A program made the translations under genes and the position numbers. 21,573 nt of DNA from the IMG/VR virus record IMGVR_UViG_3300026097_000122, positions 1 through 21,573 of that record, one strand, 5' to 3'. The DNA comes from a virus. Below the pieces are notes generated by a model that ran no database searches, was not told the DNA's origin, and saw nothing but the letters and a program-made list of their open reading frames with translations. The first letter of the stretch is position 1, and the number at the start of each line of letters is the position of its first letter. Shown in pieces: positions 7,556-17,212 of this stretch.

Positions 7556-8337
7556 TATCTAGTTATTACCGGAAATAAATTGTGTCTAGGTACAAACATT
7601 TTTCGTTGCATATAATCGCCATCAGTTACAATATTATAACTTTCTCTACCATACTCTTCTAAGTGCGTCTCTACTCTTTTAATATGAGGCTTGAGAGCCT
7701 GTAGTTTCCAACTATAAGAGTCTTCTAGAATCCAATAGATTTCGTAATGAATACCTTGTACTGGCTCTTTAAACTTGCGTTCACTTTTTGCAGTAAAAGG
7801 AGTTAACTCTATATACTTTTGTATCCCAGAGTTTAAATACTCTAAATAGTCTTCATCTAGTATCTTTTCTACATACGCAAAACAATTGCCAGGAGCATAA
7901 AAAACTTTATCTTGCTTTTTAAACTTAGTATCTAAGTCTTGAGTTATGTGATCAGTTTGCGCCTGTCCATTCTTTTTTCTTGCGCGTATAGGCACGCCTT
8001 GCTCAATTATAAAGGATTTTATTTTTTGAGAAGAAACGTAGTTTTGGGCGGCGATAGCACTAATGCTTTCTCCGTTCTGATAGTCTTTAGCAATCTGTCT
8101 TTTTTCAAAGTCTGAAAATACTTTATTCTTAGCTTTTTGTTTTAGTTCTGCAACTCTAGCTTCTTTATCTTTAAAGTCTTTGATTATGTTATCAAGTCTT
8201 TTAGTATTATAGGCAATACTTAGGTGCTCACAAACACTCTTTTTAGTCTTACCTACTTTAAGCATCCAAATAGCTTGGCGTATTTTAGCTTCTGTTATTT
8301 CTAATTTTTCTTTAGTATTAGTTTTTTTACGAGGCAT
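7555..8337 (-). CDS. HTH-containing DNA-binding protein, first gene of replication operon
   Basis: The 260-aa protein is basic at its N-terminus (MPRKKTNTKEK) and has two helix-turn-helix-like modules. One lies at about 18-55 (KSVCEHLSIAYNTKRLDNII). A clearer one lies at about 75-115 (FSDFEKRQIAKDY, then SISAIAAQNYVSSQKIKSF), resembling resolvase or sigma-4 type HTHs. The C-terminal half (about 140-260) is a mixed alpha/beta region I do not recognise. Being the first gene behind a near-consensus promoter and directly before the DnaB helicase suggests an origin-binding protein, helicase loader or early regulator. This role is inferred from position; only the HTH is visible. Confidence 0.7.
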   Translation of the reverse strand: MPRKKTNTKEKLEITEAKIRQAIWMLKVGKTKKSVCEHLSIAYNTKRLDNIIKDFKDKEARVAELKQKAKNKVFSDFEKRQIAKDYQNGESISAIAAQNYVSSQKIKSFIIEQGVPIRARKKNGQAQTDHITQDLDTKFKKQDKVFYAPGNCFAYVEKILDEDYLEYLNSGIQKYIELTPFTAKSERKFKEPVQGIHYEIYWILEDSYSWKLQALKPHIKRVETHLEEYGRESYNIVTDGDYMQRKMFVPRHNLFPVITR

Positions 8338-8356
8338 CTAAAACTCCATTAACTGT

Positions 8357-8392
8357 ATTAATTATAATACCTCAGATAATAGCAAATGTCAA
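8357..8392 (-). promoter_or_regulatory. Strong sigma-70 promoter for the replication operon
   Basis: On the minus strand a perfect -35 box TTGACA (8392-8387) is followed by exactly 17 bp and a -10 box TATTAT (8369-8364, 5 of 6 consensus). An overlapping TATAAT lies 3 bp further on. Transcription would start near 8357, about 20 nt before the ATG of the HTH gene at 8337. This is the best host-type promoter I found in the window, and it sits exactly where the replication operon begins. Confidence 0.8.
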
Positions 8393-8400
8393 TACAGAAT

Positions 8401-8715
8401 TTAATTTATTTGGAACTTGAATTCCTCGTCTAAAAAATAAAGATCGTTAGTTAGTTCTCTTACTAGTCCTGTTTGTGTGTACACAGCTACAAAACTATTC
8501 TGTATATCTGGAGTAGTGCGGTATATATACTCTAATATAAAACTAGACCTATAAGAATCCAATAGTTCTTCTTTTTTTTCTAGATCTGCGGTTTTATAAA
8601 ATCTATCAATGAGCTGATAAAAGTACTTATCTTGCTCTTCTTCTGCCATAGACACTATTGACTCAATAGTATCGTCCGACAGTTTATTTAAAAATAAAGG
8701 GCTATCGCTTGACAT
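8401..8715 (-). CDS. Small acidic hypothetical protein
   Basis: The 104-aa product is predicted from ATG 8715-8713 with GGAAGA about 11 nt upstream. A GTG nine codons upstream lies inside the terminator stem and is unlikely. The protein is acidic and helical (LSDDTIESIVSMAEEEQDKY, DLEKKEELLDSYRSS), with no membrane segment or known motif. It lies between the terminator of the four-HTH gene and the replication promoter, so it is probably expressed by read-through or from a weak promoter I cannot place. Function unknown. Confidence 0.6.
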   Translation of the reverse strand: MSSDSPLFLNKLSDDTIESIVSMAEEEQDKYFYQLIDRFYKTADLEKKEELLDSYRSSFILEYIYRTTPDIQNSFVAVYTQTGLVRELTNDLYFLDEEFKFQIN

Positions 8716-8783: not shown

Positions 8784-9479
8784 TTATGCTTCTAAAGCTT
8801 TAGGTGTGTAGTCAGAAGCTGCAATACCTCTACGGGTAAGAACAGTCTTAACACCTCGTTCAGTTTTAGAGAAATGCTCTGCAAGTTCTGCAACTGTCAT
8901 AGATGTGGCAAGATCTTCGATGCCTTCATATGTATCTGTTTTTGTTGCTTTCTTATCACGCTGTGGAGCTTTCAACTGCATAGAAAGAAGTTTACCGCGA
9001 ACAGAATTTACAGTTTTACCAAGAGTTTCAGCGATCTCTTCAAGGAAAGAACCACTCTCTGCCATCTCTGCAATTTTAGCTTCTTCGGCTTCTGTATAGG
9101 TACGTGGCGTCACTTTTTTGTCTGCAGGCTTAATATCGCCTGTCATTTCTAGTGACAGTGCTTTTCCGTTTACCTGACGGGCATTAACTTCGCGCCCCCA
9201 TGCACCAGAAAAGTGTGCTGCAATTTCTTCTGCAGTATGTTCACCGCTTTTTGCTTCTAAGAAAGCTACAAGCTCTGCAGTCTCGCCTTCGTTAAAAGCA
9301 GGAGCTGCTTTTGGCTTAGTAGGTACGTCAAACCCTAGCTTACGCAACTTTGCAGTTACTGAACGACGTGGGAAGTCAAATTCATCACAAATAGATACAA
9401 TAATATCTTCTGTGATCCCGCCGGCACACAACTCTTCCATGCGTGTAACCATTTCTTCTGTATATTCAAATTTAGCCAT
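8784..9479 (-). CDS. Four-module HTH (Myb/GcrA-like) DNA-binding protein
   Basis: The 231-aa protein seems to be four tandem copies of one helical DNA-binding unit. Units span about 5-55, 62-112, 123-175 and 185-227. Each ends in a recognition-helix-like segment followed by a short basic or hydrophobic run: RRSVTAKLRKLGFDVP, ARQVNGKALSLEM, VNSVRGKLLSMQLKAP and ERGVKTVLTRRGIAA. The pattern (acidic/aromatic helix, short helix, then S-V-x-x-K-L) resembles Myb/SANT or GcrA-like HTHs. Its base composition is clearly more GC-rich than neighbouring genes, and its codons (GCT, GAA, CGT) look optimised, which suggests high expression. It has its own promoter with palindromes and its own terminator. 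It could be a genome-coating or regulatory protein that also controls itself. The homologous unit recurs in the next gene upstream. Confidence 0.75.
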   Translation of the reverse strand: MAKFEYTEEMVTRMEELCAGGITEDIIVSICDEFDFPRRSVTAKLRKLGFDVPTKPKAAPAFNEGETAELVAFLEAKSGEHTAEEIAAHFSGAWGREVNARQVNGKALSLEMTGDIKPADKKVTPRTYTEAEEAKIAEMAESGSFLEEIAETLGKTVNSVRGKLLSMQLKAPQRDKKATKTDTYEGIEDLATSMTVAELAEHFSKTERGVKTVLTRRGIAASDYTPKALEA

Positions 9480-9511
9480 TTTTACCTCTAGTTATTTAAA
9501 TGTTAAGTTAT

Positions 9512-9933: not shown

Positions 9934-10220
9934 TATTCATCTCCTTTCTCAAAAAGTTCTAGTTGTTTAGGTTCAGTAGCTATTTTATCCCAATACCGTT
10001 TAGCAACTATTTCTCCAGCTTTTTCAAGAAGATGAGCGGCCATGTCAACATTATCAGGCCGTAATGCTAGTCCTTTTTTTGTAGGGAACCACCTACCAGT
10101 ATCTCCGTCTAGCATATATTCTCGTATATGAATATAATCTTGACCTCTAAACTCATTTACGGTTATTTTTATAGCTTTATCTTCAGATATATAACCTACT
10201 ACACCTAAATCAATTTCCAT
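9933..10220 (-). CDS. PC4/YdbC-like transcriptional coactivator domain protein
   Basis: The 95-aa protein resembles the PC4 (p15) ssDNA-binding domain. Residues 17-62 follow its pattern: a strand with IKITVNEFRGQDYIHIREYM, an acidic turn with G (LDGDTGRW), then FPTKKGLALRPDNVDMAAHL. The pieces E-F-x-G, I-R-E-Y and K-K-G-L-x-L are the conserved landmarks. PC4-fold proteins bind ssDNA or melted promoters as dimers and act in transcription or replication. The C-terminus (70-95) is an extra charged tail. It overlaps the GT4 gene by 11 nt and the small HTH gene by one base. I assign the fold with fair confidence; its phage role is inferred. Confidence 0.68.
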   Translation of the reverse strand: MEIDLGVVGYISEDKAIKITVNEFRGQDYIHIREYMLDGDTGRWFPTKKGLALRPDNVDMAAHLLEKAGEIVAKRYWDKIATEPKQLELFEKGDE

Positions 10221-11331
10221 TTATTCTCTTTACTGATGGATATTCATGCACCATACTTAAGGCTTTAAAATACTCCATCCCTATACTTTCCCAAGATTTA
10301 ATCTTACTAGAAATCTTGTTAATATGCTTTTTTTCTTTATATAGAGCTATCATTTGACTTTTCAGATGCTCTATATCTGGTTCTAATACCGAAGTATGAG
10401 CGCCCATTCTATTAAAACTATCTCCTGGTTTGCCCGCAAAGATATTATTTATGTCTACTACTATAGCTTTTGAATTAATTTTGTACTGGTCTACAAAGTC
10501 TTCAGTAGCTCCTCCACTAGTAACTAGAGGTATCGCCCCGCACGCCATAGCTTCTTGAATAGGCATTCCAAAGCCTTCTCCTCTATAAGGATGTACTATA
10601 ACATTAGCACTATTATAAAGCTCAGCCATTTGAGATTCACTATAATCTTCATCTATGTAGGTTATCTTACCTACTTGCTTATTATACTGAAGTTTTATTA
10701 TATTTTCTTGTAAATTGGTTTTACCGTATACTTTTGGAGTATCTTTTACTATTAAGTGTACTTTATCTTTATTAGAGAAGCATTGCTCCCATGCTTTTAT
10801 TAGTAAATCAAAACCTTTACGATATTGATCGCATCCTACAAACAAGAAAACATATTCTTCTTTAGGCTTAAATTCTGGTTTAGGGTAAAAAATGTCTGGG
10901 TTATAGCCATTAGCAATGGTAAATATTCTTTGAGGGTTTAGCCCTCCTTCTTCGAATACATTAGAGGCCCAAGTGCTGGGGGTGATTAAAGCGTCTGCAA
11001 AAGTCTCAAATTTATATTGCCATTCAAATGGTACTTTAGAGAACTCCCAGGGCTGTATATATACTACTTTAGTTTTTTGGTTTGAAGGCCAGCGCCACAT
11101 GGGAGGATAACTGTGCCGTAGTTGCACATCAGGAGAGGTAGTGTTTTCGCGCTTAGGCTTTAAAGACTCTATCAGGCTAATATCTTCTTTAAAAACATTA
11201 TTGCTATGATCATGGCTGTCAATAGGCGAAACTACTACATCAGTATGCTTACTTAATTCTTTTGCTACATATCTATTAACTATAGATAAAGAATGATTAT
11301 CATAAAACTTACCTACTATTTCTACTAACAT
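10210..11331 (-). CDS. GT4-type (GT-B fold) glycosyltransferase
   Basis: The 373-aa enzyme has the two-domain GT-B layout. The C-terminal nucleotide-sugar domain is clear: VFLFVGCDQYRKGFDLLIKA (about 162-181), then VHPYRGEGFGMPIQEAMACG (about 250-270). The latter contains the E-x7-E retaining-transferase motif typical of GT4. IANGYNPDIFYP before the C-terminal domain is also typical. No signal peptide or membrane segment is seen, so it acts in the cytoplasm on a nucleotide-sugar donor; the acceptor is unknown. It is the last gene of the glycan cassette and overlaps the PC4-like gene by 11 nt. Confidence 0.88.
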   Translation of the reverse strand: MLVEIVGKFYDNHSLSIVNRYVAKELSKHTDVVVSPIDSHDHSNNVFKEDISLIESLKPKRENTTSPDVQLRHSYPPMWRWPSNQKTKVVYIQPWEFSKVPFEWQYKFETFADALITPSTWASNVFEEGGLNPQRIFTIANGYNPDIFYPKPEFKPKEEYVFLFVGCDQYRKGFDLLIKAWEQCFSNKDKVHLIVKDTPKVYGKTNLQENIIKLQYNKQVGKITYIDEDYSESQMAELYNSANVIVHPYRGEGFGMPIQEAMACGAIPLVTSGGATEDFVDQYKINSKAIVVDINNIFAGKPGDSFNRMGAHTSVLEPDIEHLKSQMIALYKEKKHINKISSKIKSWESIGMEYFKALSMVHEYPSVKRINGN

Positions 11332-11333
11332 AA

Positions 11334-12155
11334 TTACCTCTTATACATTTCTTTAGCTTGTTCTTTACAATAGACTAATAAATCTTTTTCTTTTATTAGT
11401 GTTAACGCTTCCCACTGAGGGCCCATGTTACTAGTTTTAAAGTTTCGTAGGTCTTTGTAGTTATCTAGTGTTACTTTTTGTCTAGTTGAATAGAAAGGGT
11501 CTTGTTTGCTTTCATTGCTATGACCAAAGTTGTTTATTTTTAAATCTAAATCTGAATCTGGTCTGCAAAAAGACCAGTGAAGTATTGCTAAAGGGGATTG
11601 AATTACTTTTTTATTATTAGTCCATCTACAGTAAGTAAAAGTATTTTCTTTTTGAGTTACAAAGCTTTGGACTTCATTATTTGGTAGGCTTTTTCTATCT
11701 GAATTAGCTATAACTAGTATTGAGTCATTTTCAACTCTTTTATAAGGTAGTACCCAATAGAACATTAGATCAAGATCATAAGACTCTACTATAGGACAAA
11801 ACTTAGTGAAAAAATCTTTAGCATTAATCAGTTGTTCATCTGCGTCAAATGAAAATACCCAATCATTAGAGCACTGTTCTTTTAAAAAGTTACGCTCATG
11901 GTTGTCGTTTTCAATAGGAATAGAGCTTCTATGGAAATTGTCTTCAACAATAGTTATTTTATTATCACCATCAATCTGAGATAATTCTGACCATAGTTTG
12001 TTTTCGTCAAACTTAATTTTATTGCCTGTCCACGATATTCTATCTTTATCTAATCCCAACACAATTTCATCTACATAATTATAGTAAGTACGAATAGAAT
12101 TTGCTAGGTAAGAAGCATCATATGAAATAAGGCTAATAACACTTTTTTTACGCAT
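11334..12155 (-). CDS. GT2-like (GT-A fold) glycosyltransferase
   Basis: The 273-aa protein starts with SVISLISYDASYLANSIRTY, the opening strand and helix of GT2-like enzymes. The metal-binding DxD lies in NDWVFSFDADEQL (about 98-110). The N-terminal 170 residues fit a compact GT-A domain like the TagF/WaaE-like family. The rest contains LHWSFCRPDSDLDLKINNFG, which I do not recognise. It overlaps the fusion gene by 8 nt and lies 2 nt before the GT4 gene, so all are co-translated. Donor and acceptor cannot be told from sequence. Confidence 0.75.
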   Translation of the reverse strand: MRKKSVISLISYDASYLANSIRTYYNYVDEIVLGLDKDRISWTGNKIKFDENKLWSELSQIDGDNKITIVEDNFHRSSIPIENDNHERNFLKEQCSNDWVFSFDADEQLINAKDFFTKFCPIVESYDLDLMFYWVLPYKRVENDSILVIANSDRKSLPNNEVQSFVTQKENTFTYCRWTNNKKVIQSPLAILHWSFCRPDSDLDLKINNFGHSNESKQDPFYSTRQKVTLDNYKDLRNFKTSNMGPQWEALTLIKEKDLLVYCKEQAKEMYKR

Positions 12156-13584
12156 TTTTATTTGTCTTTTCTATTATCATAAGACCATTATTGTCTTTAG
12201 TCTCATATACTATTTCCCAGTCCTTATTAGCACTTAAAAACTCGTCAATGGCTAAGCGTATGCCCCCTTGACTACTTAGCCTGTCTCTAGTAGGATGATT
12301 AGGGTCCATGTCAGGGTAACCTTCTCCTACAGTACCAAAAGTTTCTGTATCGTGAAATGCTATATATTTATTTACTTTACCAGCATGTAGTTTTATCTCT
12401 TCTTTTAGTTGCTCGTATACATGCCAGGTGTCAATAAACAATAAATCTGTTTCTTCTATATCTACTGCAAGCACGTCAGCGCCTATATAAGAGGCATTAA
12501 TTCCTATCTCATTTTTAGCCCCATCGATTAAATATTTAAGATTTTCTACGTCTTCTTCAAGGTGTGGTTCAGGATTACTATACTGATAGTCGTAAGAAAC
12601 AAACTTATCTACACCTGAAAGTAAAAATGCTATAGTACTATTACCTGTTCTAGCGCCCATTTCAGTTACATGATTACATTTACTAGCATACTCTCTTAAA
12701 ACAGGGAGATGCTTATAAATATCTGATTCTGTATTACAAATATATTTATATATGTCTTCAAGAAGCTTTCGACTTACAGGAGGTTTTTTTGGTTTTATAG
12801 GCTTTAACTCTTCGCCTGTATCAACTTCAATATTTAAAGTTTTCATTTCTGGCGAGCCCTTCCATTTTTCCATAAATATTGAACGATTTATTGACCATTT
12901 TTCTTTTAAAGAAGGATTTTGAGCTATTAATCGTTTATTGTCTTTGCCTTCGAAGTGAAGAAGCGGTATACCCGTTTGATAAATTTTAAAACCAGCGCGA
13001 CGTGCAGTAAGGCACCAATCCACATCACGATAGTAAGTCCAATAAAAAGAGGGATCAAAATTACCAATAGCAGCTCGAACAGCTTTTTTGATATAAATTC
13101 CGCCCATTGTAACCCAGGCCACTTCTCTAACTTTGTCGTATTGACCCTCATCGATTTCCAACTCGCTACTTGCCTTTCCAGTAAATAGGTCAAGTCCTCC
13201 TCCGAAATGTATTGCTTCCCCATTTTTATTAAATCTTCCTCCTGCGTGCTGTATTATATACTTACCCTCGGGGGTAGTTCTTGGGTACAGCAGCTTCATT
13301 CCAAAAATACTAGCTTCAGGGTAACTATTTACAGTATTAAGTAAATCATAGTACCAAGTATTATTATCGTCTTCTAGCATAGGCAACATATCTGCGTGTA
13401 AAACTATTACGTCTCGATCTTTGTGCTTATTCCATAGGTATTGATACGCTAAATCACTTCCTATTTTGCCAGTATCTTGCCAAAACTCGCATTCTATCTC
13501 TGGGCCTAGAGACTGTTTTAGTTGAGCAACTTCTTGCTCAATTAAGTAAGGAACTATTACTATAGGATTATTTATTTCTGTCAT
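12148..13584 (-). CDS. Fusion of GT2 glycosyltransferase and class I methyltransferase
   Basis: The 478-aa protein joins two enzymes. Residues 1-245 are a GT-A/GT2 domain: VIVLHADMLPM (59-69), VAWVTMGGIYIKKAVRAAIG (155-174) and FYWTYYRDVDWCLTARRAGF (180-199), the late GT2 motifs with the catalytic Asp region. A basic-proline linker (KPIKPKKPP, about 261-269) follows. Residues 275-478 are a Rossmann SAM-dependent methyltransferase: motif I VTEMGARTGNST (306-317), DLLFIDTWHVYEQLKEEI (380-397) and YIAFHDTETFG (407-417), as in the CmcI/Methyltransf_24 group. It may add a sugar and methylate it or a neighbour. The 17-nt overlap with the next gene and the single frame support a genuine fusion. Confidence 0.82.
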   Translation of the reverse strand: MTEINNPIVIVPYLIEQEVAQLKQSLGPEIECEFWQDTGKIGSDLAYQYLWNKHKDRDVIVLHADMLPMLEDDNNTWYYDLLNTVNSYPEASIFGMKLLYPRTTPEGKYIIQHAGGRFNKNGEAIHFGGGLDLFTGKASSELEIDEGQYDKVREVAWVTMGGIYIKKAVRAAIGNFDPSFYWTYYRDVDWCLTARRAGFKIYQTGIPLLHFEGKDNKRLIAQNPSLKEKWSINRSIFMEKWKGSPEMKTLNIEVDTGEELKPIKPKKPPVSRKLLEDIYKYICNTESDIYKHLPVLREYASKCNHVTEMGARTGNSTIAFLLSGVDKFVSYDYQYSNPEPHLEEDVENLKYLIDGAKNEIGINASYIGADVLAVDIEETDLLFIDTWHVYEQLKEEIKLHAGKVNKYIAFHDTETFGTVGEGYPDMDPNHPTRDRLSSQGGIRLAIDEFLSANKDWEIVYETKDNNGLMIIEKTNKNA

Positions 13585-14569
13585 CTAACCACCTTTCAAA
13601 AGCGTCTAATACATCTTTAGCTACTACGCTTCTAGTGCAGGACCATCCGCTAGTAGTATGAGGACATTTTCTAGGCCAAAAACCTAAAGAAGCGTGCGGG
13701 CCTTCTTGTCCTGTAAATTTTTTAGAGTCCCTATCTTCATACATTTTAGTAGCTAGACACTTAGTCTCATATACTCCGCAATGGTTTTCTTTTCTATGAG
13801 TTACTGTTATATGTTTTCCTTTTTTAGAGTAAAACTCTGGGCAGTCTAGCTTTACTGGAAATATTGACGGTATGGAAATAGTATCTAACCCTAAAGCAGC
13901 AGAAGCGTGATGTAAACTACCTATAGGCCCAATAAAAATATCGTGCGTATTTAATAAGCATAAAGACTGGTACATACTTAAGTCTCCAACATCTACCCCA
14001 AATAAATTTATTTCAGAAGGCATATTACGACTATCAAGAATATCTTTTATTCCGTACATAATGTCTAGTCTTAGACTTTCTTTTTGTAACTTTCTATTCC
14101 AGTCTAGTGGGCCATTCATTCCTATTCTTAAAACATTTGATTCTGTTTTTTCAGACTCTACATATAGTTCTAAGTTACCATCATTTAGTATTTTCTCAGG
14201 TAAATATTCTTTTATTCTGTAATTGTTGCTTATATTATTACCAAAATCTGTCCACCAACCGACTTGGGGTATAAATAAATCAATTTTTTTAAATTCTTCT
14301 TCTGTCTTAGAAAGAGATATTCTCTCTAATACGCCTTGTTTATTTATTATTGCTATTCCTGCTGCGTCTATCCAAGGCTGCTTACTAAAAACCTCTACAG
14401 CTTCTATTAAGCTATCTTCGGAGTCATTAGTAGTTATGCGCATATTATCTCTTACTACAAAAGATACTAACCAGTCCGGGTTATGCTCTTTAAATCTACG
14501 GGCAGAGTTGATCCCGAACAAACAATCCCCAAAAGCCATTGAGTTAAAAAATACTGCATGTTTTTTCAT
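13568..14569 (-). CDS. GT9-like (heptosyltransferase-related) glycosyltransferase
   Basis: The 333-aa protein begins AVFFNSMAFGDCLFGINSAR, a diverged form of the GDxLxxxPA opening of GT9 heptosyltransferases. Its later DIFIGPIGSLHHASAALGLD (about 212-231) matches the GT9 donor-site pattern G-P-x-x-x-x-H-x-A-x-A-L-G. The C-terminal 90 residues are unusual, with several Cys and His (HCGVYETKCLA, KCPHTTSGWSCTR) that could bind a metal. GT9 enzymes normally use ADP-heptose for LPS core; the donor here is unknown. It overlaps both neighbours (ATGA at the SDR end, 17 nt at the fusion gene). Confidence 0.7.
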   Translation of the reverse strand: MKKHAVFFNSMAFGDCLFGINSARRFKEHNPDWLVSFVVRDNMRITTNDSEDSLIEAVEVFSKQPWIDAAGIAIINKQGVLERISLSKTEEEFKKIDLFIPQVGWWTDFGNNISNNYRIKEYLPEKILNDGNLELYVESEKTESNVLRIGMNGPLDWNRKLQKESLRLDIMYGIKDILDSRNMPSEINLFGVDVGDLSMYQSLCLLNTHDIFIGPIGSLHHASAALGLDTISIPSIFPVKLDCPEFYSKKGKHITVTHRKENHCGVYETKCLATKMYEDRDSKKFTGQEGPHASLGFWPRKCPHTTSGWSCTRSVVAKDVLDAFERWLDDRNK

Positions 14570-15597
14570 TTGTTAAATAACCTTTTAGTCCAAGTTTCTG
14601 GTGTATTCTCGTTAACTATCTCTAACTCAATATGATAACCAAAATCCCGCTCAGGTTGAGTCTTTATCCAACTAACAGTATCTCTTATAGTGTCTTCGAT
14701 AGAGTTGGTAGTTTTATAATTTAGAACTGCTTGGGCTTTTTTAGTATCTACCCATGCGTGCTTTACTTCTCTAGGCCTAGGAGGCATATATTTTATATTA
14801 GCTATTTTATTACAGTGCACAGCTACTCTAGCTGCTAAGTTTTTAATAGAGGTCTCTGTGCCGTCACTAGGCCCGATATTAAACACCTCTCCAGAATTAA
14901 TATCTTTAATTTTTTCATGGGCTACTAGAAAAGCATTTACGCAATCATCTACATGCGAAAAAGAACGTTTTTGTTCTCCGTCTCCATATACAAATACTGG
15001 TTTTTCTTTTAAGGTTAGATTAGTGAATATGCTCATAACATTTCTAAAAGGGTCACTATAACACTGGTGAGGCCCACATACATTATGAGGCACCATATGT
15101 ATTACCTTTATACCATGAATATCGCTCATTAAATTTAGATGTTGTTCTGCATGTAGCTTAGCTAACCCATAAGGATCTACAGGGTTTGGTATATCACTCT
15201 CTTTAAAAGGAGGATTACCTTCTCCATATCGAGCCATAGAGGTTGTGTTGATAAATAAGCTTACTTTTGAAGATATAGCAGCACTGCATACAGAAGCAGT
15301 GCCTGAATAGATATTCTCTACAATAGTTTTAGGCGCAAATACACTTAATCCTTCGTGTGCTAACGCGGCACAGTGGATTACTGTAGAAGGAGTATGTCTT
15401 TTAAAAAGGCTACACAACTTCTCATTGTCTAAAATATCACAGTTATAGAAAAAGAAGTTGTCATGCGTAGGCATGTTTGTTTTGTACCCACCTATCAGAC
15501 TGTCTATGCCTACTACTTGCCAGCCTTTTTTTAAATAAGCATTACATAAGTGACTACCAATTAACCCAGCACTTCCTGTTATTACAATTGATTCCAT
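14566..15597 (-). CDS. NAD-dependent sugar epimerase/dehydratase (extended SDR)
   Basis: The 343-aa enzyme begins MESIVITGSAGLIGSHL; GxxGxxG is at residues 8-14. The catalytic triad is Ser120 (NTTSMARYGEG), Tyr143 and Lys147 (DPYGLAKLHAEQ). The substrate-binding part with FVYGDGEQKRSFSHVDDC and EVFNIGPSDG follows, as in UDP-glucose 4-epimerase and GDP/dTDP-sugar dehydratases. I chose ATG 15597 because the conserved Rossmann strand starts there; a longer in-frame extension to 15699 lies wholly within the upstream gene. It overlaps the preceding transferase by 16 nt. It probably makes the nucleotide sugar used by the neighbouring transferases. Confidence 0.92.
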   Translation of the reverse strand: MESIVITGSAGLIGSHLCNAYLKKGWQVVGIDSLIGGYKTNMPTHDNFFFYNCDILDNEKLCSLFKRHTPSTVIHCAALAHEGLSVFAPKTIVENIYSGTASVCSAAISSKVSLFINTTSMARYGEGNPPFKESDIPNPVDPYGLAKLHAEQHLNLMSDIHGIKVIHMVPHNVCGPHQCYSDPFRNVMSIFTNLTLKEKPVFVYGDGEQKRSFSHVDDCVNAFLVAHEKIKDINSGEVFNIGPSDGTETSIKNLAARVAVHCNKIANIKYMPPRPREVKHAWVDTKKAQAVLNYKTTNSIEDTIRDTVSWIKTQPERDFGYHIELEIVNENTPETWTKRLFNK

Positions 15598-16346
15598 ATT
15601 GACTCCCAATCTACTACAGGGGTAATACATCCATCTTGTAGGTGAGTAGACGTACCTGGAACAGGACAAACGGCTACTCCTTGCTTGAACGCTTTCCAAG
15701 TCCAGGAATCATCTGAGAATAAGCCTGCCTGCAAGATAGAGTACTTAAAAGGTAGAAAAGCAAGACCAAGTGCTGCTAGCGTTAAAGTAGATGAAGCTAC
15801 TGTTCTTAAATGGCAGTCAGGCCCTATTATCATCTCACAGGTGGTATCTCTATCAAAATACCTGTCTGGATAATCATAAGGAACATAAAAACCACTATAC
15901 CCACTTTTAAACACGTTTTTCATATAAGTAATCGCATTAGGAGTATGTAAATAGTCATCTTCGCAGATGTATATCAACTCTTTAGGATTAGCCTCACATA
16001 AGGATATTAAAGTTTCCATTAAAGGCATACAAGTATTTATAGTAACAGGGTGGTACTGAGGATAGGGGTGTTCTCCATAAGGAGGCACTTCTGTACGTTT
16101 TGGGATATCTTTAATAGTTATATCTGCTATAGTAGTAGAAGTCATCCACTCTTTAGTATCATCTGTTACACTATCTGCAAGCACAATAATACGGTCTGAA
16201 GTTTCCAGACCGTTTTGTAAACTTAACCAGCATTTTTTGAATATATCAGATTTGTACTTACCGTTCCACCTAGGTTTATCACTATTGCCGTCACTAGTAC
16301 TTCCTGGTGATTTATTTGCTTCTGATGCTCTATATAAAATTATCAT
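15582..16346 (-). CDS. GT-A type glycosyltransferase-like protein
   Basis: The 254-aa protein has an acidic metal-binding motif in ELIYICEDDYLHTPNAITYM (about 123-142), as in GT-A transferases. Its N-terminal strand MIILYRASEAN and SDRIIVLADSVTDDT (about 50-64) fit nucleotide-sugar binding. The C-terminus, GTSTHLQDGCITPVVDWESI, resembles a segment known from phage and LPS sugar transferases that may close the active site. It is the first cassette gene and starts about 20 nt after the tmRNA end, with only a weak ribosome site (AAAGAA). A strong terminator between them is absent, so it may share the tmRNA transcript. Confidence 0.7.
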   Translation of the reverse strand: MIILYRASEANKSPGSTSDGNSDKPRWNGKYKSDIFKKCWLSLQNGLETSDRIIVLADSVTDDTKEWMTSTTIADITIKDIPKRTEVPPYGEHPYPQYHPVTINTCMPLMETLISLCEANPKELIYICEDDYLHTPNAITYMKNVFKSGYSGFYVPYDYPDRYFDRDTTCEMIIGPDCHLRTVASSTLTLAALGLAFLPFKYSILQAGLFSDDSWTWKAFKQGVAVCPVPGTSTHLQDGCITPVVDWESIWNQL

Positions 16347-16411
16347 TTAATTCTTTTTTTTATAATAAGTGAGCCCGTTCTGTTGCCCGGTGGAACTCAT
16401 ACCGCGTAGAC

Positions 16412-16450
16412 TCAAGCTGCGAGTGCTACAGGTGCAAAGTTATTGTTTGC
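16412..16450 (-). other. tmRNA tag-peptide reading frame, ANNNFAPVALAA
   Basis: Twelve codons beginning at the resume codon GCA (16450-16448) encode ANNNFAPVALAA and end at TGA (16414-16412). With the charged alanine added first the tag is A-ANNNFAPVALAA. The hydrophobic LAA end is the proteolysis signal read by ClpXP-type proteases. The sequence just before the resume codon is AAACTAAAC. The A-N-x-N start and the VALAA end are the alphaproteobacterial pattern as I recall it. Confidence 0.93.
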
Positions 16451-16534
16451 GTTTAGTTTTTTCTTGCGGTTACAGTCGCTTGCGCACTGGCTCCTAGCTT
16501 ACTTTTTAACACCTGTCGATCCTGTGTCGGTCCC

Positions 16535-16604
16535 AGCAAAGATACACTGCCGAATGGCGTATAGCCTATCCCCGTGTAACTGAATACCCTAAACAATGTA
16601 TCTA
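16535..16604 (-). other. tmRNA intervening segment (removed by processing)
   Basis: This 70-nt spacer joins the CCA end of the acceptor piece to the 5' end of the coding piece. AGATACA (16603-16597) and TGTATCT (16546-16540) pair over 7 bp and continue almost directly from the acceptor stem, as expected for a precursor cut by the host tRNA-processing enzymes. The loop between them contains a further GATAGGCTATAC segment. Confidence 0.85.
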
Positions 16605-16662
16605 TGGTGGAACCGCCGGGTACCGCCCCCGGGTCCAGAATGTTTCCAATTCACATTATTGG

Positions 16663-16693
16663 AGCTTATATAAGCTTAACACTAAATTTACAA
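16663..16693 (-). promoter_or_regulatory. Candidate promoter for the tmRNA
   Basis: On the minus strand TTGTAA (16693-16688), a 17-bp spacer and TATAAG (16670-16665) fit sigma-70 spacing. The -10 region lies in a perfect 14-bp palindrome AGCTTATATAAGCT (16663-16676). A start near 16660 would sit at the beginning of the acceptor piece. The palindrome could instead be a binding site or part of the RNA leader. Confidence 0.4.
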
Positions 16694-16739
16694 ATATGCA
16701 AATTTAAAATTACCGTGCATTTGCTGTTTGCTAAAATTT

Positions 16740-16985
16740 TTATTTAACTCTTTTACCCTGCGAAGCTTGGCGTTCTAGCTTATCTAAAAGCTCTATACGT
16801 TTCTTTTCTTGTTTTCTGTATCTTTGAACACCTGCTTTTTTATCTTCTCGCTCTTGTTCTTTTTTACTGACATAAAACTTTTTTCTACGGCTCTCATCAT
16901 AGTATCCGTCTTTATTTAGTCTCCTCATCATAGCTTTATACGCTCTTGAAACGTCATTATTATAACGTTTTACACTTACTTTCAT
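16740..16985 (-). CDS. rpsU: Ribosomal protein bS21 (phage-encoded)
   Basis: The 81-aa protein is a bS21 homologue: MKVSVKRYNNDVSRAYKAM, followed by LNKDGYYDESRRKKFYVSKK and a very basic helix (RYRKQEKKR). It fits the S21 pattern of an N-terminal strand, a basic helix and a long C-terminal basic helix. The length is close to the bacterial 70 aa, with a short extension (LDKLERQASQGKRVK). I chose ATG 16985 because AGGAGA lies 8 nt upstream and the conserved sequence begins there; an in-frame ATG at 17003 adds six codons that cover this ribosome site. bS21 sits by the mRNA exit and anti-Shine-Dalgarno region of the 30S subunit, so a phage version may retune initiation. It overlaps the upstream gene (ATGA). 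Confidence 0.88.
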   Translation of the reverse strand: MKVSVKRYNNDVSRAYKAMMRRLNKDGYYDESRRKKFYVSKKEQEREDKKAGVQRYRKQEKKRIELLDKLERQASQGKRVK

Positions 16986-17212
16986 ATGTATCTCCTTACC
17001 CATTTATAAAAGTTATTATCAGAATATTTTCCTGTTAATTTATCTACTACTCCTCCATTTTTTACTAATACAAAACAGGGAGTAGTTATTTTTTTGCTCA
17101 ATGTATCTGTATCTACGCTTTCTACACTGATGCCTTCTTTTTTTAGTTTATACAACTGTCTTTCTACATATACATAGTTGTTTTGATTGTATAATCCAAC
17201 TATCTTTTTCAT
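16982..17212 (-). CDS. Small thioredoxin/glutaredoxin-fold-like protein without CxxC
   Basis: The 76-aa protein has a strand-helix-strand start (MKKIVGLYNQNNYVYVERQL), then a T-P-x-F strand and turn (ITTPCFVLVKNGGVVDKLTG). This resembles the cis-proline and G-G hairpin of thioredoxin folds. At the usual CxxC place (about residues 8-14) it has YNQNNYV, so it cannot be a classical redox enzyme; one Cys (46) follows the TP. It heads the minus-strand operon with bS21 and tmRNA and shares an ATGA junction with bS21. The fold call is tentative; function unknown. Confidence 0.5.
   Translation of the reverse strand: MKKIVGLYNQNNYVYVERQLYKLKKEGISVESVDTDTLSKKITTPCFVLVKNGGVVDKLTGKYSDNNFYKWVRRYI

Follow-up and report, generated by a model that had tools for sequence, protein, structure and literature searches.

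What does a circularly permuted, two-piece tmRNA gene of the alphaproteobacterial type do in a phage genome, and what could the permuted form offer to a phage? The question is raised by a 21573-bp IMG/VR virus record, which was analysed here in its entirety and is referred to as the window. According to the covariance model, a complete gene of this kind lies on the minus strand at 16368-16712. In a search of the whole window, the Rfam model alpha_tmRNA (RF01849) matches 16712-16368 along its whole length (model positions 1-355) with 140.4 bits and an E-value of 8.7e-39, above its gathering score of 50 bits. The model tmRNA_permuted (RF04321) matches the same gene with 118.7 bits (E 4.8e-23), and these are the only two Rfam matches in the window. 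ARAGORN calls one gene, a permuted tmRNA at 16321-16699 (minus strand) with the tag ANNNFAPVALAA. The initial annotation had placed a permuted two-piece tmRNA at 16367-16662 and had named these two programs as checks; both agree that the gene is real and the locus correct, while the covariance model draws the interval slightly longer on the 5' side.

Read along the minus strand, the acceptor piece (16605..16712) lies upstream, followed by the spacer, or intervening sequence (16535..16604), and the coding piece (16368..16534). The acceptor piece, recognized by RF01849 and ARAGORN, contains the T-arm GGACCCGGGGGCGGUACCCGG followed by UCCACCA, and thus the 3' strand of the acceptor stem with an encoded CCA; its end reads CGGTTCC-A-CCA, the final A being position 16605. 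The coding piece, delimited by RF01849, opens at 16534 with GGGACCG, the 5' strand of the acceptor stem, and continues with the resume codon, the tag and the 3' stems. The acceptor stem is paired at seven out of seven positions and includes G3-U70, the alanine identity pair. The tag frame (16412..16450, minus strand; coding part 250-288 in ARAGORN) runs from 16450 to 16412 through the codons GCA AAC AAT AAC TTT GCA CCT GTA GCA CTC GCA GCT TGA, giving ANNNFAPVALAA with a hydrophobic end before the TGA stop. The end of the acceptor piece, the 70-nt spacer, the GGGACCG start, the 7-bp stem with G3-U70 and the tag with its TGA had been read exactly from the sequence beforehand. The spacer measures 70 nt and forms a terminal hairpin which stacks onto the acceptor stem. 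Stem and hairpin together make up one long fold of -35.5 kcal/mol (z -4.1), which none of 200 shuffled sequences equalled, and the terminal duplex of the spacer accounts for -13.3 kcal/mol. Directly upstream of the tmRNA, no sigma-70 promoter stands out clearly above background or shuffles.

The stretch around the gene is that of a phage. PHROG matches comprise an SSB, a helicase, a DNA polymerase, a primase, a replicative helicase, an exonuclease and PhoH. The polymerase and the helicase are similar to T5-like phage proteins, though at no more than about 28-41% identity, and therefore there is no close cultured relative; the source is probably an uncultivated marine phage. In viral relatives with a DnaB 77-79% identical to that of the window, there is a common gene order from the SSB to a glycosyltransferase cassette, the tmRNA and a bS21-like gene. 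The last part of this order, glycosyltransferase, tmRNA and bS21, is seen in L170-L183, and the synteny extends over 10 or more independent viral contigs in all. That the contig is a host chromosome or a misassembly with a bacterial tmRNA, as the alphaproteobacterial type of the model might suggest, has a negligible probability and is ruled out by the phage replication genes along the contig, the synteny in viral contigs, the phage-only clade of the tmRNA and its counterparts in cultured phages.

Both neighbours of the tmRNA are syntenic in relatives. Directly upstream lies a gene for a bS21-like ribosomal protein (16740..17003, minus strand), which scores 20.1 bits with Pfam Ribosomal_S21, under the cut-off of 27; several homologues reach 27-51 bits, among them the copies at the syntenic position in sister phages (27.3 and 29.9 bits). 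A bS21-like gene is found within about 0.15-1.5 kb upstream of the tmRNA in several phage lineages (the window, L183, L171, L166, L204, L338 and L416), so that the two form a recurring pair of translation-related phage genes. Directly downstream lies a putative glycosyltransferase-like gene (15582..16346, minus strand), which has no Pfam match of its own; its neighbours are an epimerase and a GT1 gene, and it is the first gene of a sugar-nucleotide and glycosyltransferase cassette. This cassette extends over 10210-16346 on the minus strand right after the tmRNA, with glycosyltransferase-like genes, an NAD-dependent epimerase and other sugar-related genes. Similar sugar genes also follow several cargo-bearing tmRNAs in other phages.

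A permuted tmRNA scores above the cut-off in 26 of the 41 related records, and none was detected in those with a DnaB 60-65% identical (L179-L182 and L188). The gene is thus conserved in the closest lineage and patchy beyond it. The same distant records keep the bS21-like gene and have a glycosyltransferase nearby, and the tmRNA must therefore have been gained or lost within the lineage. One viral contig, L028, has a pair of distinct permuted tmRNAs (8159-8493 and 9090-9481) separated by about 0.6 kb, with the tags ANDNFASEDYALAA and ANENFALAA and with a tRNA-Trp and a tRNA-Ile between them.

The initial annotation held that a permuted tmRNA in a phage would be rare or undescribed, and this does not stand. 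Of the 133 distinct phage tmRNA structures reported in PMC9004378 (2022), 53 are two-piece, and 50 of these come from marine or aquatic phages; the paper also describes the tmRNA of Melnitz, a phage that infects OM43. The search for the same arrangement in other phages was successful: permuted tmRNAs were confirmed in the cultured phages HTVC008M, Mosig and Melnitz-2 and in one single-cell virus, and one stringent pattern retrieved at least 119 IMG/VR stretches that carry one. At the DNA level, the window tmRNA has no match in 50,697 phage records, and its relatives were reached by protein and covariance-model searches only. The window gene is another member of a reported kind, the phage two-piece tmRNA. 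The Pelagibacter phages HTVC008M and Mosig share with it the RF01849 and RF04321 matches, found in complete records, and differ in their short spacers, lower scores and phage family. Melnitz ssrA (MZ577095-98; PMC9004378) is closer: it is likewise phage-borne, permuted and of the alphaproteobacterial two-piece type, lies near PhoH, a PDDEXK nuclease and late-transcription genes, and falls in the same phage clade as the window. In contrast, Melnitz belongs to the T4-like Kyanoviridae and has a glutamine riboswitch following its tmRNA, its tag is ANDNYVPVDYALAA, and its spacer has 142 nt and carries cargo where that of the window has 70 nt and none.

Where did the phage gene come from? It shares with alphaproteobacterial tmRNA (RF01849) the order of the pieces, the T-loop, G3-U70, the encoded CCA and the tag type, and differs in that its carrier is a phage lacking SmpB. 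The initial annotation had suggested that it was captured from an alphaproteobacterial host; the model type is compatible with an alphaproteobacterial origin as such, while recent capture is not supported by the sequences compared. In a FastTree phylogeny of the mature sequences, the window gene and the other phage tmRNAs, including that of Melnitz, share one long branch of their own beside three sampled alphaproteobacteria, the exception being a short viral contig (L002) that is placed among those bacteria. The best phage sequence is about 66% identical to the window tmRNA and the best sampled bacterial one 62%, in a bacterial sample that may be without SAR11. The origin of the gene seems to be old or phage-to-phage, and the type of the tmRNA does not name the host, because the phage copies group together, the gene is syntenic and Melnitz has the alphaproteobacterial type yet infects OM43. 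Nor does the tag point to a host, since a tag-based pattern in genome contigs yielded no tmRNA among the checked candidates, only unrelated coding sequence.

The most distinctive property of these phage genes resides in the spacer, and it is a property of the group, known from the relatives. The window copy is without cargo: its spacer contains no ATG ORF and no protein-coding gene. Spacer lengths in relatives vary from 16 to 256 nt, and the long ones hold open frames. Pattern scans of viral sequence for long spacers gave at least 120, at least 120 and 49 stretches; among the matches listed, 234 distinct spacers measure at least 85 nt, and 186 of these contain an ATG ORF that is 25 amino acids or longer. 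When records were sampled by neighbouring proteins, regardless of spacer length, such an ORF was present in 12 of 22 distinct spacers. The ORFs among the matches listed form 51 mostly unrelated BLAST families, an approximate count (about 50) since a few, for example family 7, are joined mainly by frames reading into shared tmRNA sequence. In the sisters of the window, L171/L192 and L170/L213, a gene lies within the spacer; the window shows the same site in its cargo-free state.

Little of the cargo can be named. DUF6356 (E 5e-12) and PGDYG (1e-6) were matched with Pfam, and PHROG and Pfam together recognized a known domain in only two of ten cargo representatives. By eye, many cargo proteins have one predicted membrane segment. 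The spacer ORF in L212/L213, on the contigs of the window sisters L172/L170, displays a CxxC pattern (MKYCKNCKHYWTKGTKGKWCCKFGKKCEKAMGHCK...) and is possibly zinc-binding. Several cargo families also have free-standing members at other places, often at a distance of 75-115 nt from a tmRNA spacer; the family MEIIWHILLTVC... is found within the spacer in many phages and corresponds in Melnitz to gene 85, directly upstream of ssrA. The 142-nt Melnitz spacer itself contains an unannotated ATG ORF, MFKWLSKTRLVVITRDYFRERNRKADAKIPKYLSG..., with a GGAG Shine-Dalgarno site. The text of PMC9004378 does not mention a spacer or nested gene by those terms, and the Melnitz record is also silent on the spacer ORF. 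The stretch in question is 5985-6437 of L216 (MZ577097, 45984-46436), and at this very place the locus tags of the record skip 87 and 88. In the open-access papers searched, no description was found of protein genes within a permutation spacer.

Bacterial spacers present a different picture. Only three of 385 alphaproteobacterial genomes match the long-spacer pattern, with spacers of 96-156 nt, and in the alphaproteobacterial spacers longer than 85 nt there is no ORF beyond 25 amino acids and none that is convincing. Most sampled bacterial spacers are 10-74 nt long and non-coding, a sample drawn mostly from best-scoring matches, with the bias partly offset by the pattern scan; those of the phage group are hypervariable and often coding.

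Could the spacer ORFs be chance open frames? In favour of such a reading, shuffle tests give weak results when the shorter cargo ORFs are taken one by one (p 0.03-0.15 for several of them), and the case for these rests on conservation. Among the matches listed, 185 ORFs lie in the sense and 61 in the antisense orientation, a 3:1 bias, and a Shine-Dalgarno-like motif precedes 120 of 167 ORF starts (72%) against 82 of 721 other ATGs (11%). In the 19 families with informative pairs, pN/pS ranges from 0.09 to 0.65, well below 1 in the true frame only, while the two shifted frames give values from 0.44 to above 8 and exceed the true frame in every family tested. The cargo families that can be tested are under purifying selection. 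Together with the Pfam matches and the free-standing homologues, these selection, strand, motif and frame controls make chance frames exceedingly improbable, and this explanation is ruled out.

The cargo does not disrupt the tmRNA. Among 166 ORF-bearing genes, 165 keep a complete acceptor stem, all 166 have G3-U70, and 153 yielded a tag by automatic recovery. The spacer ends still pair in 94% of the long spacers among the matches listed, compared to 16% of shuffles, which places the cargo in the loop of a hairpin that is stacked onto the acceptor stem. The content of the loop is highly changeable. In four sister phages from the lineage of the window, the 1 kb on each side of the spacer, mature pieces included, is 94-99% identical, yet the spacers measure 30, 94, 111 and 74 nt, the 111-nt one containing an ORF for a membrane microprotein. 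Judged from such comparisons, the spacer is a hypervariable cargo site, and the cargo in it turns over far more quickly than the tmRNA and the sequence on either side.

On the strength of all this, it is very probable that the window carries a functional phage-borne circularly permuted tmRNA gene, and that its spacer doubles as a cargo site in the wider phage group. The RNA of the window itself is most likely a working tmRNA, because the acceptor stem covaries, G3-U70 is invariant and the tags are intact: among 130 distinct tmRNAs, 128 have a fully paired 7-bp acceptor stem, all have G3-U70, and compensatory exchanges between G-C, C-G, A-U and U-A are seen at pairs 4-6. We infer two-piece maturation, charging, tagging and, where there is cargo, its translation. 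A precursor would be transcribed from the minus strand together with the bS21-like gene; host RNase P would cleave before G16534, and host 3' processing would trim the RNA to the CCA at 16605. The 70-nt hairpin spacer would be discarded, the two pieces remaining paired, and host alanyl-tRNA synthetase would charge the acceptor piece. A search for SmpB in 15 phage records, among them those of HTVC008M (147-kb), Mosig (141-kb) and Melnitz-2 (142-kb), found none, and host SmpB is therefore required. It would bring the charged tmRNA to stalled ribosomes, where the nascent chain would gain ANNNFAPVALAA, and in this way ribosomes may stay usable during infection.

The lack of SmpB in the phages examined here would also fit a phage tmRNA that acts not as a working molecule but as a decoy or inhibitor of host trans-translation. 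There is a precedent: a phage RNA consisting of a tRNA-like domain only is known to inhibit tmRNA, and a decoy role has been proposed for that of mycobacteriophage DS6A (PMC11915505, PMC4131195). However, tag frame, core and acceptor identity are intact in the window and its relatives and would be needless in a decoy, which renders this role unlikely.

A working tmRNA with cargo in its spacer would have a double use. A single transcript would then be both tmRNA precursor and mRNA, with the small genes and their own ribosome-binding sites in the hairpin loop, and the terminal stem would be kept presumably to let processing still work. Of the 51 families, 28 have the representative stop codon inside the spacer and 23 have it past the RNase P cut; in these 23, cleavage would yield a nonstop mRNA, which this very tmRNA might tag, so that a feedback is possible. 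A tentative proposal, which we hold to be possible but not probable, is that the permutation spacer is a recombination-active docking site in marine phages which ties tmRNA maturation to cargo expression, possibly with this feedback built in. The cargo may also be passive, the spacer tolerating small inserts, with the nested genes linked to the tmRNA neither in function nor in regulation. This has a substantial chance of being true, somewhat short of even: the families are many and unrelated, free-standing homologues occur nearby, and cargo-free spacers go down to 16 nt. The strong sense bias, the Shine-Dalgarno sequences of the ORFs, the purifying selection and the loading of about half of the sampled spacers have to be set against it, but they show that the genes are real and do not show coupling. 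A tolerated insertion site is a simpler view than feedback.

Genes nested in a segment that is removed from a tmRNA have been reported in other forms: one permuted tmRNA has a tRNA-Ala in its intervening sequence and one a repetitive element, while group I introns bearing homing endonuclease genes (HEGs) are found in another form of the tmRNA gene (PMC11915505, 2025). The phage spacers are similar to the intron-bearing and tRNA-Ala cases in this nesting. They differ from the intron cases in that no intron or endonuclease is seen here and the removed segment is the permutation spacer, and from both in that the cargo consists of many families of small proteins. Many small phage proteins are hidden from annotation by this nesting, in cultured Melnitz as well. 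The question is raised whether tmRNA maturation and cargo translation compete with or regulate each other. Nested and exchanged spacer genes provide a natural reason why a permuted tmRNA may serve a phage.
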